Origin: Pseudidiomarina halophila | GTDB lineage: Bacteria > Pseudomonadota > Gammaproteobacteria > Enterobacterales > Alteromonadaceae | Reading direction: 5' to 3' | Assembly (NCBI RefSeq): GCF_003987215.1 | Contig: NZ_PIPW01000003.1 | Location: 1 to 64,000 of the forward strand | Length of the DNA stretch: 64,000 nt | Part shown: positions 41,870 through 59,596 of the stretch, in pieces | Position numbering within the stretch: position 1 is the first letter of the stretch | How the letters are laid out: each line of letters starts with the position of its first letter | The notes under the pieces: generated by a model | The model's database searches: none | What the model was told of the DNA's origin: nothing | Seen by the model: only the letters and a program-made list of their open reading frames with translations | Program-made: the position numbers and the translations under genes

Positions 41870-42518
41870 GCTTACCTCCTTGTTGATTGACCATCCATAC
41901 CGCCGCTTCCACACGTGAACGCAAACCTAACTTTTTCAGCAGGTGTTTAACATGCACCTTCACAGTGCCGTCAGAAATAGCGAGCTCGCGGGCAATGACT
42001 TTATTGCTCATACCTTTAGCGATGTGTTTTAAGATTTCCAGTTCGCGGTTGGTCAGACTATCAAGCTTGCCTGTGCCCTGGGGAGCGGGACGTCGCAAGG
42101 CGGTCGCTAACACTTCGGTAATGACCTCACTTAACACCATCTTGCCTTCAATTGAACGTTTGATTTGCTCAATAAGTTGTTCAGGTTCCATGTCTTTTAA
42201 CAGGTAACCATCAGCCCCGTTGGTAATCGCCGCCACGACATCTTCATCGGCGTCGGATACCGTAAGCATGACAATGCGCGACGTAACGCCTTCATCGCGC
42301 ATGTGTTTCAGCGTCTCCAGACCGTCCATGCCCTGCATGTTCAAGTCCAGAATAATCAGATCCGGGTCAAGTTCTACTGCTTTAGGGATGGCTTCTTTGC
42401 CATTGTTAAACTCGGCTACTACTTCCAGATCGTCCTCAAGTGAAATCAATTGCTTGAGACCTTTGCGAAGCAGCGGGTGGTCGTCGACCAGCATGATACT
42501 AGAGCGCAATTCAGACAT
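41862..42518 (-). CDS. narL: nitrate/nitrite response regulator NarL
   Basis: The 218-residue regulator has a receiver domain with D12, D13 and phospho-acceptor D58 (LIILDLNMQGMDG), MLTVSD and the conserved Lys in GYLLKDM, then a LuxR-type helix-turn-helix (LTNRELEILKHIAKGMSNKVIARELAISDGTV region). It is closest to NarL/NarP. ATG 42518 has GAGGAG upstream. Its partner sensor narX is 1.6 kb away, with narK inverted between them. Confidence 0.9.
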   Translation of the reverse strand: MSELRSSIMLVDDHPLLRKGLKQLISLEDDLEVVAEFNNGKEAIPKAVELDPDLIILDLNMQGMDGLETLKHMRDEGVTSRIVMLTVSDADEDVVAAITNGADGYLLKDMEPEQLIEQIKRSIEGKMVLSEVITEVLATALRRPAPQGTGKLDSLTNRELEILKHIAKGMSNKVIARELAISDGTVKVHVKHLLKKLGLRSRVEAAVWMVNQQGGKHE

Positions 42519-42669
42519 AAAAAATCTCCTCATTCGATAGTTGGTTATTTTTACACACTTCTTGCGCTATCGCATGACTTGGGTACCTGACAACGCGTAA
42601 ACTTAGTGCTTGCTAATTTGCCTCGAAACGACAAAAAGCAATAAAAAACAGACAGATAGAACATAACAA

Positions 42670-42696
42670 TACCTAATAGGTGATAGTTTGGCTATC
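42670..42696. promoter_or_regulatory. paired short inverted repeats in the narL-narK gap
   Basis: ACCTA-A-TAGGT (42671-42681) is followed directly by GATAG-TTTGG-CTATC (42682-42696). They lie between the divergent narL and narK starts and may be operator sites. TACCTAA resembles a NarL heptamer (TACYYMT) with one mismatch. No good FNR box was found in this 272 bp gap. Confidence 0.35.
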
Positions 42697-42790
42697 TCTT
42701 AATAACTGCTGGTTAACTCTTCCGTAAACTTGCCGACAGGTAGTGCCATCAAGGATTCTATAGCTATTGTAGTCGAGACCAGGGCTTATT

Positions 42791-44140
42791 GTGTCGAATG
42801 CCTTAGCCAGTGAAACAGTTGATAAAGTCACAGCACTACACGTGATCGCCAGTACTGCCATTTGGATGTGCTGGAGCGTGTTGGTGGTGTTGCTCTATGC
42901 TCTGGATCTTGGTTTTACCATTGCTGAATTATTTGGCTTGCTGGCGTTGACGGGGTTTTCCGCAGCAGCATTTCAATTGCTCTGGTTCGGCCTCGGTGAA
43001 CGCGCTTTGCAGCCGCAGTTCATCCGAACCACGACCCCGCTGTTATTGTTGCCGGCATTAGGCTTCATTTATTGTTTTTCCACAGCAAATTATTCACTTT
43101 TTTACCTGCAGGTACTGGCCGTGGGTTGTGGGTTGGGTGGTGCCCAGCTCTATGTCCGCCGCTATCAGCACTTCGTGGCGAATCAAACTATGGGGTGGGA
43201 TCTGGCGGTCACCGCAAGTATCGGTGGCATTGGTATTGTTTTGGCCCAAATCGGAACGCCTTTGATTGCGCTGTGGCGCGGTCCTTTTCCCACTTCCGCG
43301 GCGCCGGCAGAGACCAGCATCAGTATCGGTACCTTACTCGGTAGCGTGCGGCCAGAACAAAGCATCTGGTTGAGCAATCTGGGTTGGTTCACCGCGCTGG
43401 TGGTGGTAACCCTGCTGATAATGAACTGGCGTCGACGGCCACAAGCCCAGCGGTGGCGCTCGGAAAAATCAACGCGCCGCCACTTATTACGTAATCCCCA
43501 TACCTGGTTTATGACCTTGCTGTACTGCATGGCCTTTGGCTCCTTCATCGGTTTTGCCTTAGCCTTTCCTCTCATCCTGCAGTTTCTGTTTGGCTTGAGC
43601 CGTGAATGGCAAGCTGGAGAATTGGTCAGCGTGATGAGCAACGATTATGCGCCACAAGCACTGACCTATGCCTGGTTGGGGCCGCTTATTGGGGTGGTTT
43701 CGCGACCTTTAGGGGGGTGGCTGGCGGACCAGTATGGTGGCGCCAGAGTAACTATGGTGTGTGCGTTGATGCTGGCACTGACAAGTCTGGTGGCCTCGGT
43801 GCTGACGGATAAGGCGTACCACAGTGGCGCACCAGAGCAGTATTTCCTGCCCTTTTTACTTACTTTCTTCGTATTGTTTGCGGTTTCTGCGTTGGCAAGT
43901 AGTGCCATTTATCGTTCTGCCAGCGTGTTGTTCCCCGCTAATCAGCTTGGTATTGCGCTACGCTGGTTGGCCGCGTGTGCCACAGCCGGTGCGGGGTATA
44001 TACCGCTGATGTGGGGCGTACAGAGTTACACCGCCACGCCGGCAATGGCGTTGGTCGCCTTTGCATTATTTTACGCATTCTGCGCGGCGGTCGTAGCGGT
44101 GGTTTATCTGCGCCGGCATAGTGTTTATTTCAATCCCTAA
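42791..44140 (+). CDS. narK: NarK-family nitrate/nitrite transporter
   Basis: The 449-residue MFS protein has about twelve hydrophobic helices. The nitrate-transporter motifs are present: WFMTLLYCMAFGSFIGFALAFPLI in mid-protein and LGPLIGVVSRPLGGWLADQYGGARVT. It begins with GTG; no in-frame ATG fits. It is convergent with narX (4 bp overlap) and divergent from narL. It should bring in nitrate and/or exchange it for nitrite for the Nar enzyme. Confidence 0.88.
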   Translation: MSNALASETVDKVTALHVIASTAIWMCWSVLVVLLYALDLGFTIAELFGLLALTGFSAAAFQLLWFGLGERALQPQFIRTTTPLLLLPALGFIYCFSTANYSLFYLQVLAVGCGLGGAQLYVRRYQHFVANQTMGWDLAVTASIGGIGIVLAQIGTPLIALWRGPFPTSAAPAETSISIGTLLGSVRPEQSIWLSNLGWFTALVVVTLLIMNWRRRPQAQRWRSEKSTRRHLLRNPHTWFMTLLYCMAFGSFIGFALAFPLILQFLFGLSREWQAGELVSVMSNDYAPQALTYAWLGPLIGVVSRPLGGWLADQYGGARVTMVCALMLALTSLVASVLTDKAYHSGAPEQYFLPFLLTFFVLFAVSALASSAIYRSASVLFPANQLGIALRWLAACATAGAGYIPLMWGVQSYTATPAMALVAFALFYAFCAAVVAVVYLRRHSVYFNP

Positions 44141-45951
44141 GCGTCGTTTGATGCCATCGGCTGGCGTTCTTTCAGATACTCCGGCTGGAAGTGGAAATAC
44201 ACACCGGTTCCTCCCTCAGGGCGACGCTTAATGGTGATCTCACCGCCTAAGTGCTTGCTGCGCTCCTGCATAATCGCCAAACCATAGTGATTGAGCTTCT
44301 CGGCTTGCTCCGGAATACCAACGCCATCATCCTCGATGTTCATGCCGATCGCATGATCAATAGTCTCATGCAGACGTATGGTGACTTCTGAGCCCTGACT
44401 GTGATGGATAGCGTTCTGACAGGCCTCACGAATGATCTGCAATAAATGAATTTCTTCGTGCGGTGCCAGCGGTGCATTCGCTAACTGGTAGTCCAGGCGA
44501 AACTTCAGCTCAGACTGTTCTTCAAATTGTTTTAACGTGGTTTGCAGGGCATTTAGCAACCCTGCGCCATCTACTTTAAGGCGGAACGTGGTTAGCAGCT
44601 CTCGCAGCTGTCGGTACGCTGAGCTCAAGCCTTCACGCAGTTCGTGCGAGACGTCTTCAATAACCTCTTTATTATCCTTGGCAATGCCCTTGTCGAGACG
44701 GGTTACCTGGATTTTCAGGTAGGACAAAGCTTGCGCCAACGAGTCATGAAGCTCACGGGCAATAACCGTACGCTCCTGAATTAACGCCAGGCGACGCACT
44801 TGCTCTTCTTCTTGCTTCAAACTCAGGGCAATTGCGAGCTGGTCGGTTACCGATTGCAGCAGCTGTTGCTGCCATTCATCAAGCTGCGCAGTGCGGGGGC
44901 AACGCGCTACAAGAACACCATAGTAGTGATTATCACGCTCAAGCGGATAGCGGTAGACCCGCATGCCTTCCATGACACTAACGCCACCACCAGCGGTGAC
45001 ACACTCGGCACAATCCACTCCTGCGCAGGGGTCCTCGGCGGTATCTGCGGGTTGCACCTGCAGGTAAGGCTTATCGCCTGCAGGTGTGATAAGGCAAAGT
45101 TCAATGTCATCCACCTGCGAGGCATGTTTGAGGCCGTCAATGATGTCGGTGAAATCCTGATACCCGGGCGAGCGCTCAATTATACTCCGCGCCATATTGT
45201 AGAGAAATTCAAGCTTTGCGTTACTGCGTTGCAGAGCGCGGGTTTGTTCGTCTACACGTTTCTCAAGATTGCCATACATGTAGCCAATGGCATCGTTCAT
45301 CTTATTCAGCGTCGTTGCAAGTACACCAAGTTCATCAGCTAGCGGATGTTTTACGCGCGCGGTGAAATCGCCCTGGCCGATGCGGCGGGCGGTTTGGGTA
45401 AGTAGCTGCAATGGTTGCCGCACGCGTGTGCGTAGCCAGTAAGCAATGAAGCCAGCGAGAGCAATAGTGCTGAACAAGGATAGCACCTGAATTAGTCGAA
45501 TTGCCCGAATGCGTGCTTCCGCTTCGTGCTGTAGAGCACTGACTAAATTATCAAGCTCGGTAATCAGCGGAGCAAGAGCTTGTTCAAGTTGCGCCGGCGC
45601 TACGGCTCCACTGTCCAGACGGGCCATGACCGTCTGCCAGCTTTGTTGTGCTGCCCTGAACTGCGCGCTTAACTCTGAATCGCCATTATTAAGGCGGTTA
45701 AAAACCGGATGTTGCCAGGTTGCCTGCAAGGTCTCCGCCAGCCGCTGGGCCGATTCATCCGCTGGATTGACAAGGTGGTGCCAGGCGTAGCGGTAGCTCT
45801 GCATACGTAACGAGCCAGCCTTGTTAATCGCCAGCGCATCCTGATCCGCGCGCTCGGACAACCAATACGACGCGAGCAGGGTGCCGACAGTAAGGGCAAC
45901 CATTAAACTTAGGGCGATCCCGATACGGGTAACGATGGAAAACTGACGCAT
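44137..45951 (-). CDS. narX: nitrate/nitrite sensor histidine kinase NarX
   Basis: The 604-residue kinase has two membrane helices (about 11-30 and 152-170) flanking a periplasmic sensor with the P-box AGSLRMQSYR that binds nitrate. A HAMP linker, a GAF-like central region with a Cys cluster (CAGVDCAEC), the H-box RELHDSLAQALSYLK of the HisKA_3 type and the HATPase region (EACQNAIHHS, EDDGVGIP, GLAIMQERS) follow. It signals to NarL. It is transcribed away from narG. Confidence 0.93.
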   Translation of the reverse strand: MRQFSIVTRIGIALSLMVALTVGTLLASYWLSERADQDALAINKAGSLRMQSYRYAWHHLVNPADESAQRLAETLQATWQHPVFNRLNNGDSELSAQFRAAQQSWQTVMARLDSGAVAPAQLEQALAPLITELDNLVSALQHEAEARIRAIRLIQVLSLFSTIALAGFIAYWLRTRVRQPLQLLTQTARRIGQGDFTARVKHPLADELGVLATTLNKMNDAIGYMYGNLEKRVDEQTRALQRSNAKLEFLYNMARSIIERSPGYQDFTDIIDGLKHASQVDDIELCLITPAGDKPYLQVQPADTAEDPCAGVDCAECVTAGGGVSVMEGMRVYRYPLERDNHYYGVLVARCPRTAQLDEWQQQLLQSVTDQLAIALSLKQEEEQVRRLALIQERTVIARELHDSLAQALSYLKIQVTRLDKGIAKDNKEVIEDVSHELREGLSSAYRQLRELLTTFRLKVDGAGLLNALQTTLKQFEEQSELKFRLDYQLANAPLAPHEEIHLLQIIREACQNAIHHSQGSEVTIRLHETIDHAIGMNIEDDGVGIPEQAEKLNHYGLAIMQERSKHLGGEITIKRRPEGGTGVYFHFQPEYLKERQPMASNDA

Positions 45952-46026
45952 AGCAACTCAAGTTAAAAAATGTACAGGGTATAGTTTAACGGCAATTGGG
46001 TTTAATGGGCTACCTCCTTTGTATCC

Positions 46027-46110
46027 TACTCATCGCGCTAAAAATAGCCAAAAACATCAAGTCTAATAAAATCAGCTAGTTAACCATAATTAGCTCTACC
46101 TATTTGGTAG
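46027..46110. promoter_or_regulatory. NarL-type heptamers and inverted repeat in the narX-narG region
   Basis: TACTCAT (46027-46033) and TACCTAT (46097-46103) both fit the NarL/NarP heptamer TACYYMT. The second lies in a perfect inverted repeat CTACC-TATTT-GGTAG (46096-46110). This 263 bp divergent gap serves narX and narGHJI. No convincing TTGAT-N4-ATCAA FNR box was found in it. Confidence 0.45.
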
Positions 46111-46214
46111 TAAAAAAGCCTCTCCCCCCTGGTTTTCACCCCCGCGCAGCCTATGGCAAAAGCCTCTGGACTTCGCCACACTTAGCGCGTTCGACATCGA
46201 CCAGGAGTTTGAGG

Positions 46215-49200
46215 ATGAGTCACCTACTCGAAAAATTGCGTTTCTTCAAAACGCGTAAAGAACCCTTTGCAGATGGGCATGGGGTAACAACAGATCAAAA
46301 TCGTTCATGGGAAAGCGGCTATCGCCAGCGTTGGCAGCACGACAAAGTAGTGCGTTCAACCCATGGGGTGAACTGTACTGGCTCATGCAGCTGGAAAATT
46401 TATGTTAAAGATGGCCTGGTAACCTGGGAAACCCAACAAACGGATTACCCGCGTACCCGCCCGGACCTGCCGAATCACGAACCACGTGGTTGCCCACGCG
46501 GGGCGAGCTACTCTTGGTATATCTACAGCGCGAACCGGCTGAAATATCCAAAAATGCGTCAGCAGCTGATGAAACTTTGGCGTGAAGCCAAAGAGCAGCA
46601 TAGCGATCCGGTCGCCGCCTGGGAGTCTATCGTCAGCGATCCTGTGAAGGCGAAAAGCTACAAAGAGCGCCGTGGTCTGGGTGGTTTTGTCCGCGCCAGC
46701 TGGGATGAGGTCAACGAGTTAATCGCTGCAAGTAACGTTTATACAGCGAAGACTTACGGCCCTGACCGTATCAACGGCTTCTCGCCTATTCCGGCGATGT
46801 CTATGGTTTCGTATGCTGCAGGTTCGCGTTACCTGTCGCTGATCGGTGGTAACTGTCTAAGTTTCTACGACTGGTACTGTGACTTACCGCCAGCGTCACC
46901 ACAGGTGTGGGGTGAGCAAACAGACGTGCCGGAATCGGCCGACTGGTATAACTCCAATTACATTATCGTTTGGGGCTCCAACGTTCCGCAGACGCGTACG
47001 CCAGATGCGCACTTTTTGACCGAAGTCCGCTACAAAGGCACTAAGACCTGTGTCATTACCTCGGATTATTCAGAAGCTTCGAAGTTTGGTGACACCTGGT
47101 TGTCACCGCGTCAGGGCACGGATTCCGCGTTAGCGATGGCGTTTGGTCACGTCATTCTGAAAGAATTCTACGTCAATACGCCAAGCAGCTATTTCAATGA
47201 TTACGTGCGTCGCTACACCGACATGCCTATGTTAGTCATGCTCGAGCCGGGCGAGAAAGTACTTAATCAGGGCCGCTTCCTGCGCGCGGCTGATCTGGTC
47301 GACAATCTGGGCGAAGATAACAATCCAGACTGGAAAACCATTGCCTTCAATGAAGAAGATCAGCGTTTAACCAGCCCGAATGGTGCCATTGGTTATCGTT
47401 GGGGCCAGAAAGGCAAATGGAACCTTGAGCAGAAAGATGCAAAAGGTGATCTGAAGCTGGCGTTAACGCTGAAAGACAGCCACGACGAAATCGTCGAAGT
47501 TGGCTTCCCGTACTTTGGTTCTGCACCACACGAGTATGACTACTTCCAGCACACTCACCATGATGAAGTGCAAGTTCGCAAAATTCCGGCGAAACGTATT
47601 GAGCTTGCCAATGGTGAAACAGCACTGGTCGCTACCGTGTTTGATTTGATGCTGGCGCAGTATGGTGTCGATAACGGTATTAATGACGAAAACCGTGCGC
47701 AAAGCTACGAAGACGACGTACCTTATACTCCTGCGTGGCAAGAGCAAATCACCGGCGTTAAGCCTGCGGATGTGATTCGCATCGCCACTGAATTTGGCCG
47801 CAACGCGGACAAAACCAAAGGTCGTTCGATGATTATCGTTGGTGCCGCGATTAACCACTGGTATCACATGGACATGAGCTACCGCGGCTTGATCAACATG
47901 CTGATGATGTGTGGCTGTATCGGTCAAAGCGGTGGCGGCTGGGCGCACTACGTTGGACAGGAAAAACTGCGTCCGCAAACCGGCTGGCAACCGCTGGCAT
48001 TTGGTTTGGACTGGCAGCGTCCACCGCGTCAGATGAACGGTACCTCATTCTTCTATAATCATTCCAGCCAATGGCGTTATGAAAAACTGGATATGAGCGA
48101 AGTGGTATCGCCACTGGCTGATAAAAACAAATGGCAAAGCTCGATTATTGACTACAACACCCGCGCTGAGCGCATGGGTTGGTTACCCTCTGCCCCGCAG
48201 CTGGGCGTTAACCCGCTGACGGTTGCCGAAAAAGCCAAAGCGGCAGGAAAAGAAGTCAAAGAGTACCTGGTTGAACAGCTGAAAAGCGGAGATATCCCGT
48301 TTGCCTGTACGCAACCGGATGATCCAAAGAACTTCCCGCGAAACATGTTTATCTGGCGTTCGAACCTGCTTGGCTCCTCAGGTAAAGGCCATGAGTACAT
48401 GCTCAAGCACTTCCTGGGCACGACCCATAAAACCTTCGGCGAAAACCTTGGTGAAATGGGTGGCAAAAAACCAGAAGACGTTGAGTGGGTTGACGATGGT
48501 GCTGAAGGCAAGGTTGACCTGTGGGTAACCCTTGATTTCCGTATGTCGACCACCTGTCTGTACTCAGACATCGTGTTACCAACTGCGACCTGGTATGAAA
48601 AAGACGACATGAATACGTCTGACATGCATCCCTTCATTCACCCGCTGACAGCGGCAGTGGATCCGGTCTGGGAAGCGCGCAGTGACTGGGAAATCTTTAA
48701 AGGCATTGCGAAAGAATTTTCCAAGGTCTGTAAAGGTCACCTGGGTGTTGAACAGGACGTGGTTACCACGCCAATCATGCACGATTCCGCTGGCGAAATG
48801 GCGCAGCCATACGGCGTTAAAGCCTGGTGGAAAGGTGAGTGTGAAGCTATTCCAGGCGTCACTATGCCAAATATCACTGTCGTCGAGCGCGATTACCCGA
48901 ATACCTACCATCGCTTTACCTCCCTTGGTCCGTTAATGGATAAGTTAGGCAATGGCGGTAAAGGTATTAACTGGGATACGAAAGAGGAAGTTGATTTTCT
49001 CGGCAAGTTGAACCGTGTTCATTATGAAGAAGGTGCTAACAAAGGCCGGCCGATTATTGAAAGTGCTATCGATGCTTGCGAAGTCATCCTGTCGCTGGCA
49101 CCGGAAACGAACGGTCATGTTGCAGTGAAAGCATGGGCGGCATTAGGCGAGCAGACCGGGCGTGATCACACCCACCTGGCGAAGCCAAAAGAGGAAGAGA

Positions 49201-49934
49201 AAATCCGCTTCCGCGATATCGTTGCGCAACCACGGAAAATTATCTCATCACCTACCTGGTCTGGCCTGGAAGATGAGCATGTCTCCTACAACGCGGGTTA
49301 CACCAACGTTCATGAGTTGATTCCATGGCGGACAATAACTGGCCGGCAACAGTTCTATCAGGACCACGAATGGATGCGTGATTTCGGTGAAACCTTATGT
49401 GCTTATAAGCCACCGATTAACCTGAAGACCGTGCAGCCGGTGCTGAACAAAAACCAGAACGGCAACAAAGAGATCGTGCTGAACTGGATTACTCCGCACC
49501 AGAAGTGGGGTATTCACAGTACCTACTCAGAAAACCTGTTGATGCTGACCCTGTCACGCGGCGGCCCGATTGTCTGGATGAGTGAAATCGATGCTAAGGC
49601 GGCCGGAATTGAAGATAACGATTGGATTGAAATCTTCAACGTTAACGGTTCGATTAATGCGCGGGCAGTTGTCTCCCAGCGGGTTCCGGAAGGCATGAGC
49701 ATGATGTATCACGCTCAGGAACGTCTGGTAAATATTCCGGGCTCTGAACTGACCGGTACCCGTGGCGGTATCCACAACTCAGTCACACGGGCGGTGATGA
49801 AGCCGACTCACATGATTGGTGGATACGCACAACAAGCCTATGGCTTTAACTATTACGGCACAGTTGGCTGCAACCGCGATGAATTCGTGGTTATCCGCAA
49901 GATGGATAAAGTCGACTGGCTGGATACTGAATAA
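46215..49934 (+). CDS. narG: respiratory nitrate reductase alpha subunit NarG
   Basis: The 1239-residue molybdo-bis(MGD) enzyme reduces nitrate to nitrite on the cytoplasmic side. The FS0 cluster ligands are in HGVNCTGSCSW, with the fourth Cys in PRGCPRGASYSW. MGD-binding segments such as DWYCDLPPASPQVWGEQTDV and MIIVGAAINHWYHMDM are present. ATG 46215 has AGGAG seven bases upstream and starts as MSHLLEKLRFFK; a longer in-frame reading has no Shine-Dalgarno. It heads narGHJI-ppiC. Confidence 0.97.
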   Translation: MSHLLEKLRFFKTRKEPFADGHGVTTDQNRSWESGYRQRWQHDKVVRSTHGVNCTGSCSWKIYVKDGLVTWETQQTDYPRTRPDLPNHEPRGCPRGASYSWYIYSANRLKYPKMRQQLMKLWREAKEQHSDPVAAWESIVSDPVKAKSYKERRGLGGFVRASWDEVNELIAASNVYTAKTYGPDRINGFSPIPAMSMVSYAAGSRYLSLIGGNCLSFYDWYCDLPPASPQVWGEQTDVPESADWYNSNYIIVWGSNVPQTRTPDAHFLTEVRYKGTKTCVITSDYSEASKFGDTWLSPRQGTDSALAMAFGHVILKEFYVNTPSSYFNDYVRRYTDMPMLVMLEPGEKVLNQGRFLRAADLVDNLGEDNNPDWKTIAFNEEDQRLTSPNGAIGYRWGQKGKWNLEQKDAKGDLKLALTLKDSHDEIVEVGFPYFGSAPHEYDYFQHTHHDEVQVRKIPAKRIELANGETALVATVFDLMLAQYGVDNGINDENRAQSYEDDVPYTPAWQEQITGVKPADVIRIATEFGRNADKTKGRSMIIVGAAINHWYHMDMSYRGLINMLMMCGCIGQSGGGWAHYVGQEKLRPQTGWQPLAFGLDWQRPPRQMNGTSFFYNHSSQWRYEKLDMSEVVSPLADKNKWQSSIIDYNTRAERMGWLPSAPQLGVNPLTVAEKAKAAGKEVKEYLVEQLKSGDIPFACTQPDDPKNFPRNMFIWRSNLLGSSGKGHEYMLKHFLGTTHKTFGENLGEMGGKKPEDVEWVDDGAEGKVDLWVTLDFRMSTTCLYSDIVLPTATWYEKDDMNTSDMHPFIHPLTAAVDPVWEARSDWEIFKGIAKEFSKVCKGHLGVEQDVVTTPIMHDSAGEMAQPYGVKAWWKGECEAIPGVTMPNITVVERDYPNTYHRFTSLGPLMDKLGNGGKGINWDTKEEVDFLGKLNRVHYEEGANKGRPIIESAIDACEVILSLAPETNGHVAVKAWAALGEQTGRDHTHLAKPKEEEKIRFRDIVAQPRKIISSPTWSGLEDEHVSYNAGYTNVHELIPWRTITGRQQFYQDHEWMRDFGETLCAYKPPINLKTVQPVLNKNQNGNKEIVLNWITPHQKWGIHSTYSENLLMLTLSRGGPIVWMSEIDAKAAGIEDNDWIEIFNVNGSINARAVVSQRVPEGMSMMYHAQERLVNIPGSELTGTRGGIHNSVTRAVMKPTHMIGGYAQQAYGFNYYGTVGCNRDEFVVIRKMDKVDWLDTE

Positions 49935-49955
49935 CGTTGGAGTGAGGACAATACG

Positions 49956-51491
49956 ATGAAAGTAAGAGCTCAAATTGGCATGGTGCTGAATTTGGACAAG
50001 TGTATTGGTTGTCATACCTGCTCCATCACTTGTAAAAATGTCTGGACCTCACGTGAAGGCGTGGAGTACGCATGGTTCAACAACGTTGAAACCAAACCCG
50101 GTATCGGCTTCCCGAAAGAATGGGAAAACCAAGACAAGTGGAACGGTGGCTGGGTACGCAATAAAAAAGGCAAGCTGGAACTGAAGATCGGTACCAAGCG
50201 GCGCGTGTTGGCGAATATTTTCGCCAACCCGGATCTGCCTGAAATCGACGACTACTATGAGCCGTTTGATTTTGATTACCAACACTTGCACACGGCAAAA
50301 GACACCAAGCATCAGCCGATTGCCCGTCCGCGTTCACTGATCAGTGGTCAGCGCATGGAGAAAATCGAATGGGGTCCGAACTGGGAAGAAATTCTCGGTA
50401 CGGAATTCGCCAAACGGAAGAAAGACAAAAACTTCGACGAAGTCGTGCAAAAAGATATCTACGGTCAATTTGAAAAGACCTTCATGATGTATTTGCCGCG
50501 TTTGTGCGAGCACTGTCTGAACCCGGCTTGTGTTGCTGCGTGCCCGTCAGGTGCAATTTATAAGCGCGAAGAAGACGGTATCGTGCTTATCGATCAGGAT
50601 AAGTGCCGCGGCTGGCGCATGTGTGTTTCTGGCTGCCCGTACAAGAAGATTTACTACAACTGGAAAACCGGTAAATCAGAGAAATGTACCTTCTGTTACC
50701 CACGCATTGAAGCTGGGCAACCGACCACCTGCTCTGAGACCTGTGTAGGACGTATCCGTTATCTGGGCGTACTGCTTTATGATGCTGACCGCATCGAAGA
50801 AGCAGCGAATACCCCGAACGAGCAAGATCTTTATCAGGCACAGCTTGATATCTTCCTGGATCCGCATGATCCGGAAGTGCAGGCAGCTGCGCGCAAAGAA
50901 GGTATTGCAGATAACTGGATTCAGGCGGCACAACGCTCACCGGTGTATATGATGGCAATGCAATGGAAAGTTGCGTTACCACTGCATCCGGAATACCGCA
51001 CCCTGCCGATGGTTTGGTACGTGCCACCACTGTCGCCAATTCAAAGTGCAGTCGAGGCAGGTCATGTCGGTATGAACGGTGAGATTCCAGACCTGAAATC
51101 GCTGCGTATTCCATTGCGTTATCTGGCAAACATGCTCACCGCCGGCGACGAATTTCCAATTGTCCGGGCGCTGGAACGCATGATTGCGATGCGAGCTTAC
51201 AAACGCAGTCAGCACGTTGATGGTGTCGAAGATCTTGACGTGCTCAAGCAGGTCGGCCTGACCCAGCATCAAGTTGAAGAAATGTACCGTTATATGGCGT
51301 TGGCCAATTACGAAGATCGTTTCGTGATACCAACCAGCCACCGTGCCTATGCTGAAAATGCTTACGACCTGAAAGGTAGCTGCGGCTTCACTTTCGGTAA
51401 TGGTTGTAGTGACGGCAACAACGATGTGAACCTGTTTGGTGCGAAGAAGCAAAGCGTGCGCCAGGTCATTCCGGTCACGGTGAAGGAGTAA
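49956..51491 (+). CDS. narH: respiratory nitrate reductase beta subunit NarH
   Basis: The 511-residue electron-transfer subunit carries four Fe-S clusters. Its Cys groups are CIGCHTCSITCKNVW (near 18), CEHCLNPACVAACPSGA, CRGWRMCVSGCPYKK (the Trp gives the [3Fe-4S] site) and CTFCYP with CSETC. It passes electrons from NarI haems to NarG. It starts 21 bases after narG, with GTTGGAG upstream. Confidence 0.97.
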   Translation: MKVRAQIGMVLNLDKCIGCHTCSITCKNVWTSREGVEYAWFNNVETKPGIGFPKEWENQDKWNGGWVRNKKGKLELKIGTKRRVLANIFANPDLPEIDDYYEPFDFDYQHLHTAKDTKHQPIARPRSLISGQRMEKIEWGPNWEEILGTEFAKRKKDKNFDEVVQKDIYGQFEKTFMMYLPRLCEHCLNPACVAACPSGAIYKREEDGIVLIDQDKCRGWRMCVSGCPYKKIYYNWKTGKSEKCTFCYPRIEAGQPTTCSETCVGRIRYLGVLLYDADRIEEAANTPNEQDLYQAQLDIFLDPHDPEVQAAARKEGIADNWIQAAQRSPVYMMAMQWKVALPLHPEYRTLPMVWYVPPLSPIQSAVEAGHVGMNGEIPDLKSLRIPLRYLANMLTAGDEFPIVRALERMIAMRAYKRSQHVDGVEDLDVLKQVGLTQHQVEEMYRYMALANYEDRFVIPTSHRAYAENAYDLKGSCGFTFGNGCSDGNNDVNLFGAKKQSVRQVIPVTVKE

Positions 51492-51495
51492 TCTG

Positions 51496-52224
51496 ATGCA
51501 AGTTTTACAAGTAATTTCGTTATTACTCGACTACCCGAAAGTAGAGCTGCTCGAAGTAGTGCCCGAATTACGTGCCACGGTACGTAACTCGGCACTGAGC
51601 AGTGCCCAACAGCAAGCTTTGGATGGGTTTATTGTGCGCCGCACCAGCGGTGACTTTATGGACTGGCAATCAGAATACGATCGCTTGTTCGAACGTGGCC
51701 GCGCACTGTCATTACTGTTGTTTGAACACGTTCATGGTGAATCCCGCGATCGTGGTCAGGCAATGGTCGATTTAATGCAGCAATATCAGCAGGCCGGCTT
51801 AGATATCGGCGTCAAGGAACTGCCTGACTACATTCCATTGTATCTGGAGTTTCTCGCTACCCAGGGAGAAGAAAATGCTCGCGAAGGTTTGGCGGAAGTC
51901 GGCCATATCCTTGCGGTCCTGGCAGTACGCCTGGAACAACGTGAGTGTGATTACGCCGAGCTGTTCCGAAGCTTGCTGGAATTGTCGCAAGTCCAGGTCG
52001 ACCTGAATGATGTTCGCGCTCAGGTTGAAAAAGAAAAACGCGATGACACCCCAAAAGAACTGGATAAAGTTTGGGAAGAAGAAATGGTGACCTTCACCGG
52101 AAATGATGCGACCAGCACTTGCCCGACGGCGCAAAACCGTCCTGGCGAAGGGCAGCGGCGGGATCAGTATATTCCGCTGAATCTTGACCAATTAAGTAAC
52201 GTGAAAAACGCTGCGGATGCCTAA
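51496..52224 (+). CDS. narJ: nitrate reductase assembly chaperone NarJ
   Basis: The 242-residue acidic helical protein is the dedicated chaperone that inserts the molybdenum cofactor in NarG and holds NarGH until membrane docking. The NarJ/TorD fold pattern includes ISLLLDYPK near the start, YDRLFERGRALSLLLFEHVHGESRDRGQAM and LPDYIPLYLEFLA. It lies four bases after narH. A longer acidic tail than usual holds a Thr/Cys stretch. Confidence 0.95.
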   Translation: MQVLQVISLLLDYPKVELLEVVPELRATVRNSALSSAQQQALDGFIVRRTSGDFMDWQSEYDRLFERGRALSLLLFEHVHGESRDRGQAMVDLMQQYQQAGLDIGVKELPDYIPLYLEFLATQGEENAREGLAEVGHILAVLAVRLEQRECDYAELFRSLLELSQVQVDLNDVRAQVEKEKRDDTPKELDKVWEEEMVTFTGNDATSTCPTAQNRPGEGQRRDQYIPLNLDQLSNVKNAADA

Positions 52225-52235
52225 GGAGCATGACC

Positions 52236-52925
52236 ATGAATTATTTAAATACGTTTTTCTTTGGTATCTACCCTTACATTGCGCTGGCGGTAATGGTGAT
52301 CGGTACCTGGATCCGCTATGACCGCGAGCAATTTACCTGGAAGACCAGTTCCAGTCAGATGCTTGAAAAAAAGCAGCTACGTCGCGGTAGCATCGCTTTC
52401 CATATTGGTATCTTAGCGATTTTTGTCGGCCACTTTGTCGGTTTGTTGACGCCTTCTGAAGTCTGGCACGTTTTAGGCATCAGCACGTCAGCTAAGCAAA
52501 TTATTGCGATCGTGGCGGGCGGTATAGCTGGGGTGATTTGTTTTTACGGCCTGACGATCTTGATCGTGCGTCGTTTGAAAAATCCGCGCATTCGCGCCAA
52601 TAGCAGTACCATGGATATCGCGATTTTGTTGTTGCTTTACGCGCAACTGATTCTGGGTTTACTGTCGATTTTTGTTTCCCTCGACCACCTCGATGGATCA
52701 ACCATGGTGTTGTTGATGAGTTGGGCACAGAATACGCTGACCTTCGATGCAACGGCTGCTGCGGCAGCAATGACCGATGTGCACTGGATTTTTAAATTGC
52801 ACGTTACCCTTGGTTTAACGATCTTTTTGGTGTTCCCATTCACCCGCCTGGTGCACATGCTCAGCGTACCTATGCAGTATCTGCGCCGTCAGCACCAGGT
52901 CGTGCGTCAGAAAGCGCCGCGCTAA
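52236..52925 (+). CDS. narI: respiratory nitrate reductase gamma subunit NarI
   Basis: The 229-residue cytochrome b has five transmembrane helices and binds two b haems through His residues (HIGILAIFVGHFVG near 50-65, and KLHVTLGLTIFLVFPFTRLVHM near 185-205). It oxidises quinol and anchors NarGH. ATG 52236 has AAGGAG seven bases upstream; an ATG at 52230 is too close to it. Confidence 0.96.
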   Translation: MNYLNTFFFGIYPYIALAVMVIGTWIRYDREQFTWKTSSSQMLEKKQLRRGSIAFHIGILAIFVGHFVGLLTPSEVWHVLGISTSAKQIIAIVAGGIAGVICFYGLTILIVRRLKNPRIRANSSTMDIAILLLLYAQLILGLLSIFVSLDHLDGSTMVLLMSWAQNTLTFDATAAAAAMTDVHWIFKLHVTLGLTIFLVFPFTRLVHMLSVPMQYLRRQHQVVRQKAPR

Positions 52926-53748: not shown

Positions 53749-54387
53749 ATGGACCACAACTTCTGGCATCAACGCTGGCAGAACCAGCAGATTGGCTTTC
53801 ACCGCGACGTTTTTCACGAACTGTTAACTACTTACTTTCCCAAAGCATTATCTAGCGGACGCGTTTTAGTACCCTTGTGCGGCAAGTCGAGAGATATGCT
53901 CTGGTTGCTTGATCAAGGCTACAAAGTTTTTGGCATTGAGCTGAGCGAACTTGCTGTGCAGGCTTTCTTTCAGGAGAACCAGCTGAAGCCAGAGATTCAG
54001 CAGCGCGGCAAGTTTAAAGAGTACGCTATAGATGAGCTGGTGATTTGGGTCGGCGATGTATTCGACCTCGCTGTTGAAGATCTTGCTGATGTCGACGGCT
54101 GGTACGATCGGGCTGCACTTGTGGCACTGCCTGAGAGTTTACGATCGGATTATGTGAAGTTACTAAAACACAAGCTGCCGCGGGGCAGTAAAGGACTGCT
54201 GATAACAGTGGAGTACCCGCAGGGGTTTCGCCAGGGACCGCCTTTTTCGATCGCTGAAGATGAGGTAGTTGCTGGCTTTGAGAGTCGTTTCAGGATCAAA
54301 CCTTTGGCGCGGATACCGGGCATGGTAAATAATGAAGTACCAGCCGACAACCCGGTTACGGAGCAAGCCTATCTCCTCTATGATTAA
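53749..54387 (+). CDS. tpm: thiopurine S-methyltransferase
   Basis: The 212-residue SAM-dependent enzyme matches bacterial Tpm: FWHQRWQNQQIGFH at the N-terminus, RVLVPLCGKSRDMLWLLDQGY (SAM motif I), FGIELSELAVQAFF, and DGWYDRAALVALPE. Bacterial Tpm can methylate selenium and tellurium compounds, which nitrate reductases also reduce. The start directly follows the T run of a terminator, with GGAGG in the hairpin. It overlaps the next gene by 4 bp at the end. Confidence 0.92.
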   Translation: MDHNFWHQRWQNQQIGFHRDVFHELLTTYFPKALSSGRVLVPLCGKSRDMLWLLDQGYKVFGIELSELAVQAFFQENQLKPEIQQRGKFKEYAIDELVIWVGDVFDLAVEDLADVDGWYDRAALVALPESLRSDYVKLLKHKLPRGSKGLLITVEYPQGFRQGPPFSIAEDEVVAGFESRFRIKPLARIPGMVNNEVPADNPVTEQAYLLYD

Positions 54388-54683
54388 TCATCTGTAATCA
54401 GGTCATTGCGTTTTAAAACTTTGAGGGTGCGGCGCGCGAGCTTTTCCAGAAAAGCTAAATCGGAAAGGGTTGGAACTGCAGTTTCGTTATCCAGATCGAC
54501 CTGCCATTGGCTGACTTCAGTGTCGAGCATTTCCATCATTTTTTTGGAACAGCCCCGGCAGATGCCCTGACACATATCGGCCTCTTTAAGACCGAAGGGA
54601 ATGTTGCTGCGGATGGTATCCAGCAGCTGCTGCATGGCGACTATAGTGTTGGGCTTGCGTTGACCGGTAGTTACTTCAGACAT
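54384..54683 (-). CDS. small conserved protein with CxxxCxxC motif (function unknown)
   Basis: This 99-residue protein has an N-terminal helix (TIVAMQQLLDTIRSNIPFGL), the motif MCQGICRGCSKKMMEMLD (Cys spacing CxxxCxxC), and a C-terminal helix with basic residues. It has no signal. It resembles small uncharacterised gammaproteobacterial proteins with a C-x3-C-x2-C-KK motif; a metal or Fe-S site is possible. ATG 54683 has GGAGG five bases upstream. It sits just after the NO reductase terminator on the same strand. Confidence 0.75.
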   Translation of the reverse strand: MSEVTTGQRKPNTIVAMQQLLDTIRSNIPFGLKEADMCQGICRGCSKKMMEMLDTEVSQWQVDLDNETAVPTLSDLAFLEKLARRTLKVLKRNDLITDD

Positions 54684-54743: not shown

Positions 54744-57014
54744 TTAGTTTTGTTCTGCGGTAATCCCCGCGGTTTGTCCTTGTTTACCCCACAGACCAGA
54801 AACGACCTGCCAGCTAATCGCAAACGCACCTATGATGAAAACCACATCGCCAACGGTACGGACCCAGCGCAGTCCTTCCAGCAACGGCTGTTGCATGAAA
54901 GCTTCACTGCGGGCATACCAAAGTCCTTCTGAAGCTGCCGCATGGAACTGAATGAAACCAATCGGCAACAAGCTGGTGAACAGCATTAAGCCAAGACCGA
55001 TATTCATCCACCAGAACGAGGTGCTCATCAGTTTATCGTTGAACGCCAGATGTGGGCGAATGTAGCGCAGGATGAGCAGTACAAAACCCAGTGCCAGGAA
55101 ACCATAGACACCAAACAAGGCCGCGTGTGCGTGGGTTGGTGTGGTGTTCAAGCCCTGCACATAGTACAGCGAGATTGGCGGGTTGATCATGAAGCCAAGT
55201 ACGCCGGCGCCGAGCATATTCCAGAATGCGACGGCAACGAAGCACATGAGCGGCCACTTGATACGTTGCATCCACACGGCTTTCTTCTGCAGGCTCCAGT
55301 TCTCCCAGGCTTCATAGCCAAGCACGATAAGCGGAACAACTTCTAACGCGCTAAAGGTCGCACCTACCGCCATAACGGGTGTGGTGGTGCCTGAGAAGTA
55401 CAAGTGATGGAAGGTTCCTGGTACACCGCCGAGCATAAACAGTGAGGCTGACGCCAGCGCGGCAACGGTCGCCATACGGCGCGATACCAGGCCCATGCTA
55501 TGGAAAATGAACGCCAATGCGGCGGTGGCAAATACTTCAAAGAAGCCTTCTACCCACAGGTGGACAATCCACCAGCGCCAGAACTCCATGATAGAGATAT
55601 GAGTGCGTTCGCCGTAGAAGAAGCCAGCCCCGTAGAATAAGCCAATAGCGACGACTGAAGCGGTAAACAACGCCAGCAGGTTCTTATCACCTTTCTGTCT
55701 GAACGCACCAATGACGCCGCGCATCATCAATACCAGCCAGAATACGATGCCAACGAATTTACCAATCTGCCAGAGCCGGCCAAGGTCGACGTATTCGTAG
55801 CCTTGATGGCCAAGCCAGAAGTTAAGGTGTTCAGGCATGATTTGCGCGATGGCAAGGTAGTTACCAATGAAGGTACCGGCGACCACAACCACCAGCGCCC
55901 AGAACAAGATATCAACGCCGAGCTTCTGGTATTTAGGATCTTTTCCGCCGTTGATAATCGGCGCTAAGAATAAACCAGCTGCTAAGAAGCCCGTTGCTAT
56001 CCAGAATAGCGCAGCTTGGATATGCCAGGTACGAACCAGGCTGTAGGGGAACCATTGTGAAATCTCAATGCCGTAAAACTCTTGTCCTTCAACGGTGTAG
56101 TGGGCAGTAAGACCGCCGAGTAAAACCTGGAAGGAAAATAGTGCCACGACAATAAACAGGTATTTTCCTAACGATTTCTGTGACGGTGTCAGTTTTACCA
56201 GACTGATGGGATCCTGGGTTGGAATTTCAACCTCTTCTTCGTCATGTTGACGTAAGAATGCCCAGGCCCAGATCAGGAAACCGACGCCGGCGATAAGCAG
56301 GATAACACTGACAATAGACCAGATGATGTTTTCCGCGCTGGGGGTATTGTCAATCAACGGCTCATGGGGCCAGTTGTTGGTATAGGTGACGTCTGCGTCA
56401 GGACGCTCGGTTGCGGCAGCCCATGCGGTCCAGAAGAAAAACTCTGCCATACGTTCGCGCCGTTCCAGGCTTGGCAGGGTGTTTTCTTTCATCGCATAGC
56501 TTTCGCGTGTGCTTTGCAATGCAGCGTCGTCGCTAAATAACCGCACATAATAATCAGCAGTTTCTTCAATGGCTTTTACCCGACGTGCATCGAGTACCAC
56601 CTCGTCAGTCAACGCATCATAGGTGTTTGTGCGATATGCTTGCTTAAGTTCGAACTGCAGCTGATTTTGCTGCGCCGGGGTTAGGTCCTCATACTCTGCT
56701 GCAAAGACTTCAGCCGCGGCAATGTTAAGCCAGGCCACAAGCTCACGGTGTAACCAGTCTGCAGTCCAGTCGGGCGCCTGATAGGCACCATGGCCCCAAA
56801 TCGAGCCAAGTTGCATGCCTCCGACAGATTGCCAGGCCGTTTGCCCATCAAGAATCGACTCGCCCGTCATGAGTGTCTGTCCGTTTACCGAAACAAACTT
56901 TTCAGGAATGGGCGGTGCCTCACGATATACCTCTTTACCGAAGTACCCCAAAATACCAAACGTAATGGCAAGAACCGCAATGAGCGTCCACCATAATTTT
57001 TTGTAACCAGCCAT
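54744..57014 (-). CDS. norZ: quinol-dependent nitric oxide reductase (qNor, NorZ type)
   Basis: The 756-residue protein reduces NO to N2O in the inner membrane using quinol. It has an N-terminal helix, a NorC-like extracytoplasmic part without the haem-c CxxCH motif (about 35-225), then a NorB-like region of about 12 helices. Haem and FeB ligands are in LVRTWHIQAALFWIATG, FWRWWIVHLWVEGFFEVFATA, FHHLYFSGT and HAHAALFGVYGFLALG. The absence of CxxCH marks the quinol type. It has its own sigma-54/NorR promoter region upstream. Confidence 0.95.
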   Translation of the reverse strand: MAGYKKLWWTLIAVLAITFGILGYFGKEVYREAPPIPEKFVSVNGQTLMTGESILDGQTAWQSVGGMQLGSIWGHGAYQAPDWTADWLHRELVAWLNIAAAEVFAAEYEDLTPAQQNQLQFELKQAYRTNTYDALTDEVVLDARRVKAIEETADYYVRLFSDDAALQSTRESYAMKENTLPSLERRERMAEFFFWTAWAAATERPDADVTYTNNWPHEPLIDNTPSAENIIWSIVSVILLIAGVGFLIWAWAFLRQHDEEEVEIPTQDPISLVKLTPSQKSLGKYLFIVVALFSFQVLLGGLTAHYTVEGQEFYGIEISQWFPYSLVRTWHIQAALFWIATGFLAAGLFLAPIINGGKDPKYQKLGVDILFWALVVVVAGTFIGNYLAIAQIMPEHLNFWLGHQGYEYVDLGRLWQIGKFVGIVFWLVLMMRGVIGAFRQKGDKNLLALFTASVVAIGLFYGAGFFYGERTHISIMEFWRWWIVHLWVEGFFEVFATAALAFIFHSMGLVSRRMATVAALASASLFMLGGVPGTFHHLYFSGTTTPVMAVGATFSALEVVPLIVLGYEAWENWSLQKKAVWMQRIKWPLMCFVAVAFWNMLGAGVLGFMINPPISLYYVQGLNTTPTHAHAALFGVYGFLALGFVLLILRYIRPHLAFNDKLMSTSFWWMNIGLGLMLFTSLLPIGFIQFHAAASEGLWYARSEAFMQQPLLEGLRWVRTVGDVVFIIGAFAISWQVVSGLWGKQGQTAGITAEQN

Positions 57015-57051
57015 ACATCACCTATTTGTTATTGAGTCCTCATCGGTTGTA

Positions 57052-57069
57052 TTGCAATTACCTGGCCAA
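57052..57069 (-). promoter_or_regulatory. sigma-54 (-24/-12) promoter of the NO reductase gene
   Basis: On the - strand TTGGCCAGGTAATTGCAA has GG (-24) and GC (-12) separated by exactly ten bases, fitting TGGCAC-N5-TTGC with two mismatches in the AC pair. Transcription would start near 57043, leaving a 28-base leader with AGGTG before the ATG at 57014. Confidence 0.8.
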
Positions 57070-57110
57070 CTTTTAAGTGTCTGTTTTTAAAGGTTTTGCG
57101 TGGCTGTTTG

Positions 57111-57167
57111 GGTAAAAATAACCTAGTCTGTCAGACAGTAAAATTGCCCTTCAGGGTCGAATTTACC
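57111..57167 (-). promoter_or_regulatory. three NorR-type enhancer sites (GT-N7-AC)
   Basis: Three inverted repeats have the NorR core GT-N7-AC: GGT-AAAAATA-ACC at 57111-57123, GT-CTGTCAG-AC at 57126-57136, and GGT-CGAATTT-ACC at 57155-57167, the last inside the longer pair CAGGGT/ACCCTG. They are centred about 74, 88 and 118 bases upstream of the predicted start, a normal distance for a sigma-54 activator. NorR also uses three such sites at E. coli norVW. Confidence 0.75.
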
Positions 57168-57182
57168 CTGCGCGCCATTTTG

Positions 57183-57196
57183 TTGATCCTGATCAA
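57183..57196 (+). promoter_or_regulatory. perfect FNR box upstream of nrdG
   Basis: TTGATCCTGATCAA matches TTGAT-N4-ATCAA at all ten fixed positions. If centred at -41.5, transcription starts near 57231, with TAGTCT at the -10 position, giving a leader of about 47 bases before nrdG. Confidence 0.85.
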
Positions 57197-57226
57197 CGCA
57201 AAGCTCACGCCTTGCTCTAGTCTAAA

Positions 57227-57242
57227 ACACAATATCTAGTGT
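57227..57242 (+). promoter_or_regulatory. NrdR box upstream of nrdG (strong copy)
   Basis: ACACAATATCTAGTGT matches the NrdR consensus ACACWATATATWGTGT at 15 of 16 positions. It covers the predicted FNR-dependent start site, so NrdR would repress there. Confidence 0.8.
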
Positions 57243-57258
57243 TTATTGTCTACAACTA

Positions 57259-57274
57259 ACACCATATAGGCGAT
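57259..57274 (+). promoter_or_regulatory. NrdR box upstream of nrdG (weak copy)
   Basis: ACACCATATAGGCGAT matches only about 10 of 16 positions, but begins exactly 32 bases (three helical turns) after the strong box, the spacing seen between paired NrdR boxes. Confidence 0.45.
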
Positions 57275-57277
57275 ACG

Positions 57278-57751
57278 ATGCGATTCAGTGCAAAAGACAT
57301 TGTGTTTCAGGAAGTTCCCGGCGAAGTCGCGCTGGCCTATACCATCACCGGTTGCACCGTGGGTTGTAAGGGCTGTCATAGCGTCGACAGCTGGCCAGCT
57401 GATCGGGGTGAGCGATTAACCCGGCAGAGCTTCACGAATGAACTCGATCGCTACGCTGGACTCATCACTGCGGTGTTGTTCTTAGGCGGCGAGTGGCATC
57501 AGGACGCCTTAATAGAACTGTTAGATGTGGCAATTAGCAGGGGTCTCCGCACCTGCCTCTACACTGGATTAGACACCGTGCCTGCGCTTGTGCAACGGCG
57601 CCTAACTTATTTAAAAACCGGCCCGTGGCGGGCCGAACGTGGCGGCTTAGCAAGTGCCACAACGAATCAGAGGTTTTACGACCTGAGCTCGGGGAAAGTT
57701 CTCAATGCTTTATTCTGCCCCGACTTTATTGACTGTGAATTAGTGAACTAA
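57278..57751 (+). CDS. nrdG: anaerobic ribonucleotide reductase activase NrdG
   Basis: The 157-residue radical SAM enzyme makes the glycyl radical on NrdD. The Fe-S Cys are C26, C30 and C33 (CTVGCKGC), after VALAYTITG. LFLGGEW is the SAM GGE motif. It precedes nrdD, the reverse of the E. coli order. Confidence 0.92.
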   Translation: MRFSAKDIVFQEVPGEVALAYTITGCTVGCKGCHSVDSWPADRGERLTRQSFTNELDRYAGLITAVLFLGGEWHQDALIELLDVAISRGLRTCLYTGLDTVPALVQRRLTYLKTGPWRAERGGLASATTNQRFYDLSSGKVLNALFCPDFIDCELVN

Positions 57752-57769
57752 AACAGAAGGACAACAACA

Positions 57770-59596
57770 ATGCTGCGCTTACAACCTGAACAAATCGAGC
57801 ACAAAATGAACTTCATCCAGGAGTATCTGCAAGCACAAAATGCGGCGGATGGATCGAAAATGGATGCTAATGCCAATGTCACGCAAAAGAACATTGCGAC
57901 CCTGGAAGCTGAATTGATGAAAGACTTTTTTGTGCAAGTGAATCGCAAGCAAGTCAGTAGCAAAATTGCTGAGTTGTTTGATGAGCAACTCGCACAAGAG
58001 TACGTTCGACAAATTGAAGATCATGAGATCTACGTGCATGACGAAACCAGCTTGAAGCCCTACTGCGTGTCGGTGACCATGTATCCATTTTTACGAGACG
58101 GCCTCACTAAGTTGGGCGGCGAATCGCTGGCGCCCAAGCACCTGGAGAGCTTCTGTGGCTGTTTCGTGAATTTTGTTTTTGCTGTTAGCTCTCAGTTCGC
58201 CGGCGCTGTGGCGACCGTAGAGTTTTTAACCTACTTCGATTACTTTGCGCGCAAAGATTACGGTGATGATTACCTGAACACCCATCGCCATCAAATCCAA
58301 AATCATTTGCAACACGTGGTGTACGCGTTAAATCAACCGGCTGCTGCGCGTGGTTATCAGAGCGTATTCTGGAACATTTCCGTGTACGATAAATTTTATT
58401 TCGATAGCATGTTTGGTGAATTTGTTTTCCCTGACTTTAGTAAACCCGAGTGGGGATCGGTCAGCGCGTTACAGGACTTCTTCATGCACTGGTTCAATGA
58501 AGAGCGCAAAAAAACCATTCTCACCTTCCCGGTCGTCACTGTGGCCATGCTCACCGAGGACGGTAAGTGTAAAGATCAGGCATTTGCTGAGTCTATGGCA
58601 GGTGAACTTGCTGATGGCAACTCCTTTTTTGTCTATTTGTCAGACAATGCCGACTCGTTAGCCTCATGTTGTCGACTACGCAGCGAAATTAGCGACAACA
58701 CCTTCTCCTACACCCTGGGTGCGGGAGGCGTTGCTACTGGCTCCATTAATGTCATTACCATCAACATGAACCGGCTGGTACAGGATGGCCGTGATCTGGC
58801 GACGGAAATCGAAAAAATTCAGAAATACCAGGTCGCTTACCGGCGTCTGATGGAAGAGTACAAAGCAGCTGGCTTGTTGACCGTGTATGACGCCGGCTTT
58901 ATCTCACTGGATAAACAGTTTCTGACCATCGGCATCAACGGTATGGTTGAGGCGGCGGAATCACAGGGCATCGAGGCAAGCAATAATCCTGAATACATTG
59001 CCTTTGTCCGCGACCGGCTGAAAGTGATTTATGATGCAAATAAAGCCGCAAAAGCCGAATACGGCTGCATGTTCAACACAGAGTTTGTGCCGGCTGAAAA
59101 CCTCGGCGTAAAAAATGCGAAATGGGATCGGGCAGACGGCTATTTCGTGCCACGGGATTGCTACAACTCCTACTTTTATGTTGTCGAAGATCAGCAATCG
59201 AATGCGCTGGATAAATTCGTCTTACATGGTGATGAGTTAATTCAGTACCTCGATGGTGGTTCGGCACTGCATTTAAACCTTGATGAAAAGCTTAACAAAT
59301 CCGGCTACCTGGCATTGCTGAATACTGCAGCACAAACGGGCTGCAATTACTTTTGTATCAACGTAAAAATCACCATTTGTAATGCCTGTGAGCATATCGA
59401 TAAGCGCACACTCAGCGCGTGCTCGTCCTGTGGTTCGGAAGATATTGATTACGGGACCCGGGTTATCGGATACCTGAAACGGGTTTCGGCCTTTAGTTCG
59501 GGGCGGCAACAAGAGCACAACCGCCGTTATTACGAACGCGCAGAATCGGGGCATGTTGAAGCCTCCGCACAGCGCGCCTGGCGTCAGGCCAGTTAA
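57770..59596 (+). CDS. nrdD: anaerobic ribonucleoside-triphosphate reductase NrdD (class III)
   Basis: The 608-residue enzyme makes dNTPs from NTPs without oxygen. At the C-terminus a zinc-type Cys set (CNACEHIDK and CSSCGSE) is followed by the glycyl radical loop RVIGYLKRVSAFSSGRQQE. Midway it has GNSFFVYLSDNADSLASCCRLR, which holds active-site Cys. It is about 100 residues shorter than E. coli NrdD, because the N-terminal ATP-cone is missing. That suggests the allosteric activity site is absent. AAGGA is upstream and a terminator follows. Confidence 0.93.
   Translation: MLRLQPEQIEHKMNFIQEYLQAQNAADGSKMDANANVTQKNIATLEAELMKDFFVQVNRKQVSSKIAELFDEQLAQEYVRQIEDHEIYVHDETSLKPYCVSVTMYPFLRDGLTKLGGESLAPKHLESFCGCFVNFVFAVSSQFAGAVATVEFLTYFDYFARKDYGDDYLNTHRHQIQNHLQHVVYALNQPAAARGYQSVFWNISVYDKFYFDSMFGEFVFPDFSKPEWGSVSALQDFFMHWFNEERKKTILTFPVVTVAMLTEDGKCKDQAFAESMAGELADGNSFFVYLSDNADSLASCCRLRSEISDNTFSYTLGAGGVATGSINVITINMNRLVQDGRDLATEIEKIQKYQVAYRRLMEEYKAAGLLTVYDAGFISLDKQFLTIGINGMVEAAESQGIEASNNPEYIAFVRDRLKVIYDANKAAKAEYGCMFNTEFVPAENLGVKNAKWDRADGYFVPRDCYNSYFYVVEDQQSNALDKFVLHGDELIQYLDGGSALHLNLDEKLNKSGYLALLNTAAQTGCNYFCINVKITICNACEHIDKRTLSACSSCGSEDIDYGTRVIGYLKRVSAFSSGRQQEHNRRYYERAESGHVEASAQRAWRQAS

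Follow-up and report, generated by a model that had tools for sequence, protein, structure and literature searches.

Control of norB by NorR is already known and its mechanism is a textbook one, to which the locus described here adds a further case. In Cupriavidus necator (Ralstonia eutropha), the targets of NorR are YtfE/NorA and qNor/NorB; norA and norB are consecutive genes, transcribed divergently from norR, and share one module, in which three GGT-N7-ACC sites before norA are followed by a sigma-54-type promoter. The norR/norVW system of Escherichia coli likewise places three sites, all of which retain GT-N7-AC, upstream of a sigma-54 promoter, but its target is the flavorubredoxin NorV and not qNor; the three enhancer sites are reported to be essential (PMC2941729). 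In Ralstonia solanacearum, norA is described as being under NorR and norB expression as independent of NorR (PMC9045102). NorR sites and a sigma-54 promoter before norB have been predicted in Ralstonia spp. and Shewanella putrefaciens by Rodionov et al. (2005, PMC1274295), in whose account P. stutzeri is the one exception to the clustering of norR with its targets. The word Idiomarina was not found in the main text of that paper, a literature search did not find Pseudidiomarina together with NorR, and the RegPrecise 3.0 text names NorR once, within a list.

Here we consider a stretch of 64,000 nucleotides from Pseudidiomarina halophila (the window, meaning the whole stretch of DNA that was analysed), in which qNor is separated from nrdG by an intergenic region of 263 bases. 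We conclude that the qNor promoter is very probably activated by NorR and dependent on sigma-54. This would place the qNor of Pseudidiomarina and related Idiomarinaceae in the NorR regulon, with qNor and YtfE/RIC as its two predicted targets, and the C. necator norA-norB arrangement is here split, with each half retaining the same sort of control region. The features, in window coordinates unless stated otherwise, are as follows.

54384-54680, minus strand: small open reading frame downstream of qNor, 98 codons from the chosen start, a possible operon partner
54744-57014, minus strand: qNor (quinol-type nitric oxide reductase, norB-like), 756 amino acids, from its open reading frame and Pfam
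57053-57068, minus strand: candidate sigma-54 (-24/-12) promoter, TGGCCAGGTAATTGCA, its TGGC and TTGC columns invariant in 18 loci of the genus
57111-57123, minus strand: candidate NorR site 3 (promoter-proximal), GGT-N7-ACC, GGTTATTTTTACC, 55 bases from its GGT to the promoter TGG
57126-57136, minus strand: third GT-N7-AC repeat of the original prediction, GTCTGACAGAC, judged a chance match
57137-57149, minus strand: candidate NorR site 2, the middle one, a degenerate copy, GGGCAATTTTACT, that follows site 1 in register at 18 bases
57155-57167, minus strand: candidate NorR site 1 (promoter-distal), GGT-N7-ACC, GGTAAATTCGACC, 44 bases upstream of site 3
57183-57196, plus strand: FNR-type box, TTGATCCTGATCAA, attributed to the divergent genes nrdG-nrdD
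57278-57751, plus strand: nrdG-like gene for an anaerobic ribonucleotide reductase activase (NCBIfam TIGR02826, score 165.7 bits, cut-off 151.7)
57770-59596, plus strand: nrdD, anaerobic ribonucleoside-triphosphate reductase (NCBIfam TIGR02827, score 1031.9 bits, cut-off 568.3)
Outside the window, same genome, C4:70164-71765 (L003:1036-2640): norR, about 13 kb from qNor, NCBIfam NorR equivalog

The qNor protein has the fused N-terminal cytochrome c-like domain that marks a qNor (PF22085, residues 37-217, with PF00115 at 283-725; Pfam matches NorB_cytochrome_c-like, 1.2e-69, and COX1, 2e-58), and an NCBIfam search with it gave no match. The nearest named qNor in the similarity search, from which the source genome's own record may have been absent, is that of Pseudidiomarina terrestris (93%), and the large subunit of the nitric oxide reductase (qNor) on C. 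necator H16 pHG1 is 70.8% identical. Upstream of the gene, the order of parts is the same as before C. necator norA, namely enhancer sites followed by a sigma-54-type promoter. The distances from GT to GT and then from GT to TGG are 18, 26 and 54 bases in the window, 19, 26 and 51 at C. necator norA, and 21, 24 and 66 at E. coli norV, a close agreement in layout, in line with the original prediction of NorR logic like that of norVW and Cupriavidus norAB. The -24/-12 promoter with ten-base spacing that had been proposed before qNor is also there: GG-N10-GC is exact at 57054-57067, and TGGCCAGGTAATTGCA spans -54 to -39 relative to the qNor ATG, so that a transcription start would be predicted near 57043. 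Its -24 element is TGGCCA and not TGGCAC, which counts against the NorR/sigma-54 reading. A sigma-70 scan of 56400-57500 found no promoter, and the genome has a gene for sigma-54, which would be expected of a NorR regulon with its sigma-54 promoter downstream of the enhancer sites.

The enhancer sites needed some revision. Three GT-N7-AC repeats, two of them in the fuller GGT-N7-ACC form, had been proposed; all of these strings are present and the two fuller ones stand as sites 1 and 3, but the third is judged not to be the third NorR site, and the middle position belongs to 57137-57149, which lacks the GT half. We rejected the repeat at 57126-57136 because it is out of register and not conserved: taking GTCTGACAGAC as the third site would give spacings of 30 and 14, against 19 and 26 in C. 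necator and 21 and 24 in E. coli, and none of the six nearest relatives (L040-L045) has the repeat at that position. A fourth GT-N7-AC, which the original prediction did not include, lies at 57220-57230.

The norR gene that was expected elsewhere in the genome is at C4:70164-71765. Its product scores 712.8 bits with the NCBIfam NorR equivalog NF003451 (cut-off 476), as expected of an orthologue, and is 60.9% identical to NorR of C. necator H16 pHG1. It has Pfam GAF and Sigma54_activat domains, the latter being one of eight matches to the sigma-54 activator domain in this genome, five of them strong, and its AAA+ sigma-54 loop is GAFSGA, as in C. necator, where E. coli has GAFTGA. Across 73 aligned NorR sequences the loop is GAFSGA in 54 and GAYSGA in 7 (61/73 together). 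The NO/iron residues are the same as in E. coli NorR: R75, D96, Y98, D99, H111, C113 and D131 (numbered as in E. coli) are conserved in all 73 aligned sequences, and we take D96 and D131 to be also part of the iron-residue set. Substitutions at R75, Y98, D99, H111 and C113 are reported to disrupt the iron centre, and R81 is reported to be critical for repression by the GAF domain of E. coli NorR (PMC2941729). The window genome's NorR has T at position 81, which counts against the NorR reading. We considered loss of R81 as the mark of a special class of NorR and dropped the idea, since among the 73 sequences R is found at this position only in E. coli, and 56 have A, S, T or G. At position 83, R is present in 54 of the 73.

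In this genome norR is divergent from a gene for a hemerythrin-domain protein whose best NCBIfam match, YtfE, scores below the cut-off (195.2 bits against 254), and this YtfE/RIC-like gene carries a matching NorR/sigma-54 module. A search of the genome for the exact spacing of the qNor proximal site and promoter, with up to one mismatch, gave one match, at qNor, and none with the reversed pattern as control; it fixes a single distance (55) and misses the ytfE module (54). Searching over a range, with GGT-N7-ACC 30-60 bases upstream of TGGC-N7-TTGC, finds both modules among five matches, compared with two for the reversed-pattern control. The three other matches are probably due to chance, because the control also gives matches. 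They lie within open frames of at least 120 codons, but this is no firm ground for dismissing them, since the ytfE match overlaps an open frame as well, the upstream stretch of the norR frame. That overlap points to a start for norR downstream of the TTG assumed in this analysis. Allowing up to three mismatches in a three-site pattern made the search too loose to be useful (five matches in the genome, one adjoining norR, against two in the control). The predicted NorR regulon here is thus qNor and ytfE, and weaker members could have been missed.

In the mechanism that we propose, NorR made from the gene about 13 kb away would bind the strong palindromes at 57155-57167 and 57111-57123 and, less firmly, the middle site between them. 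NorR binding, the response to NO, the assembly of the oligomer and the position of the start site are carried over from what is known of NorR in E. coli and C. necator. By that analogy, NO bound to the non-haem iron of the GAF domain would release the AAA+ ring, the freed ring would open sigma-54 polymerase at 57053-57068, and qNor would be made when NO is present. The same NorR would control the YtfE/RIC-like gene through its matching module.

It could be argued that the promoter and repeats are chance matches with no function. The individual motifs are certainly common: GT-N7-AC occurs 213 times and GGT-N7-ACC 28 times in the 64 kb, there are seven GT-N7-AC triples within 80 bases, of which the one upstream of qNor is one, loose sigma-54 matches are frequent, and the repeat at 57126-57136 is, in our judgement, just such a chance match. 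The layout is a different matter. When the 263-bp intergenic region was put through 20,000 dinucleotide shuffles and scored by criteria chosen after the site had been seen, at least two GGT-N7-ACC arose 14 times, a pair spaced by 40-48 bases did not arise, and GGT-N7-ACC with TGG-N8-TTGC at 45-75 bases on its downstream side arose twice. The alignment across relatives that had been proposed as a check speaks even more clearly, and the control region is conserved in 18 related genomes: all 20 core columns of the two outer sites and the promoter are invariant, compared with 11 of the 175 other gap-free columns. The distance from the GGT of site 3 to the promoter TGG is 54-56 bases in 18 of 18, against a range of 54 to 126 from promoter to ATG. 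Every one of these 18 upstream regions has at least two GGT-N7-ACC and a sigma-54 promoter. In our view conservation makes chance an extremely unlikely explanation, and on these alignments it is the decisive evidence, confirming that the site is real.

Two other regulators must also be weighed against NorR. The perfect TTGAT-N4-ATCAA box at 57183-57196, which is inside the intergenic region, is the only one in 64 kb and went unmentioned in the original prediction, could in principle give the region mainly to FNR or DNR, so that qNor would respond to low oxygen, or to NO through a DNR-type sensor. Such boxes usually lie at -41.5, and the centre of this one lies some 146 bases away from the start predicted for qNor. 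TTGA-N6-TCAA precedes nrdG in 17 of the 21 nrdD loci searched in the genus; of the four without it (L104, L109, L110 and L112), the first three do have qNor. G130 and G135, the two genomes that have NorR and nrdD and lack qNor, keep the box before nrdG, and NorR sites sought upstream of nrdG in them were not found, the lone GGT-N7-ACC in G130 being far upstream of nrdG, at -1024 from nrdD. Because the box persists there and the sites do not, the palindromes appear to go with qNor and the box with nrdDG, and we reject the box as the qNor switch; FNR/DNR control of qNor is improbable. The genome with nrdD only (G137) has neither an FNR box nor NorR sites before nrdG. The other candidate is an NsrR-like Rrf2 repressor encoded elsewhere in the genome (C1:874088; L223:1459-1902), whose best NCBIfam match is NsrR, below the cut-off (103.7 bits against 182). 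In R. solanacearum, NsrR is the predicted regulator of norB, and sites for it have been reported 5' of that gene (PMC9045102). The best match to the NsrR motif in our intergenic region, however, has three mismatches and falls short of the NsrR palindrome, and the plus strand of the 64-kb window holds 50 matches with three mismatches and 4 with two; neither NsrR nor NarL/NarP sites rise above background in this region. Control of qNor by this repressor is therefore highly improbable. The Rrf2 protein is a second possible NO sensor in the genome, and because it is encoded alongside NorR, NO control need not be by NorR alone.

The distribution of the genes is consistent with NorR as the regulator of qNor. 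Among 26 genomes of the genus, which are related, so that counts are not independent, qNor is present in 18 and NorR (matches with E up to 1e-100) in 20; all 18 with qNor also encode NorR, on the same contig. Besides G130 and G135, which have NorR only, six genomes have neither gene, and two of these eight qNor-less genomes (G133 and G135) are less than 90% complete. Judged by these genomes, the module and NorR accompany qNor and not its neighbour nrdG. In a sample of 118 genomes from the family, qNor was found in 18, four of them within the genus. Of the others, the nine at 75-85% identity (L073-L081) each have at least three GGT-N7-ACC within 300 bases, and seven of them (all but L078 and L079) gave a match in the promoter scan. 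The five distant qNors, at 48-49% identity (L082-L086), have no upstream GGT-N7-ACC, so the module is not universal for qNor.

The degenerate middle site counts against the NorR reading, given the requirement for three sites in E. coli. Among the 18 qNor loci of the genus, ten have three full GGT-N7-ACC at almost constant spacing (17-19 and 25 bases), one (L051) has five of six core bases at the middle site, and seven, including the window, have a degenerate middle site between outer sites 44 bases apart. In the alignment of these seven window-clade loci (L039-L045), the AC half is kept in all and the GT half in two. In all 20 ytfE modules of the genus both outer sites are full, and the middle site is full in two (L063 and L072). 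We offer, as a tentative and rather doubtful idea, that NorR of this clade works on two full sites and a half-site, with an oligomer that may assemble on an asymmetric scaffold, and that the module was copied or rebuilt when qNor moved. The scaffold is suggested by a middle site that has stayed in position and, for the most part, retained its AC half in the clade's qNor modules and most ytfE modules, and has lost the GT half; the copying or rebuilding, by the module preceding both genes even though the norA-norB row is split. The weakened middle enhancer, which has stayed in register in both modules, offers a natural experiment on the number of full sites required by NorR.

We sorted by arrangement 80 named loci fetched by qNor similarity, for which gene and species names rest on similarity. 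RIC lies directly before qNor with norR divergent in 22, and the module precedes RIC in 21 of these, the exception (L210) having three GGT-N7-ACC but no scored promoter. A further 13 have RIC before qNor and no norR within the examined flank, and GGT-N7-ACC was found before RIC in none of them. The module is directly before qNor, with neither RIC nor norR in the flank, in 16 loci, all of the Pseudidiomarina/Idiomarina type (15 so named and one MAG named only Gammaproteobacteria), which overlap the 18 genus genomes and are not independent of them. Single loci have norR divergent with the module directly before qNor (L197) or norR divergent and no scored module (L217). The remaining 27 have neither gene and no scored module, although 13 of them (Rheinheimera and others) have at least two GGT-N7-ACC within 500 bases. 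On these counts the C. necator gene order is a common one that is broken up in Pseudidiomarina, with the ytfE-like gene by norR and qNor by nrdDG with its own module. This sets the window apart from C. necator, as qNor is about 13 kb off with its own module and a weakened middle site, and from the set of Rodionov et al. (2005), in which, P. stutzeri apart, norR is described as clustered with its targets. In R. solanacearum, norB is reported not to depend on NorR, in contrast to the detached qNor of the window, which is preceded by a NorR module.

All 16 Pseudidiomarina/Idiomarina-type loci have an anaerobic ribonucleotide reductase gene in the vicinity of qNor, as do 10 of the 64 other named loci (Rheinheimera, Arsukibacterium and two MAGs). 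On C. necator pHG1, a ribonucleoside triphosphate reductase gene follows norB by about 1.2 kb, with three small genes between (L140:1-148). This proximity suggests an old linkage or a shared transfer.

The small open reading frame downstream of qNor has no match in Pfam or NCBIfam and contains a cysteine-rich stretch, CQGICRGC; its homologues adjoin qNor at five of the 16 Pseudidiomarina/Idiomarina-type loci, as well as at six others, for example in Rheinheimera. Close to qNor, the window also holds a nitrate respiration cluster at 40649-52925 (moeA, narL, narK-like, narX-like, narG, narH, narJ and narI), in which the narK-like and narX-like genes both score under the NCBIfam cut-off. Finally, the conjugative plasmid pNi1-3 of Shewanella decolorationis (L141) carries, amid transposase genes, a qNor 74.7% identical to that of the window, and qNor genes of this sort can therefore travel.
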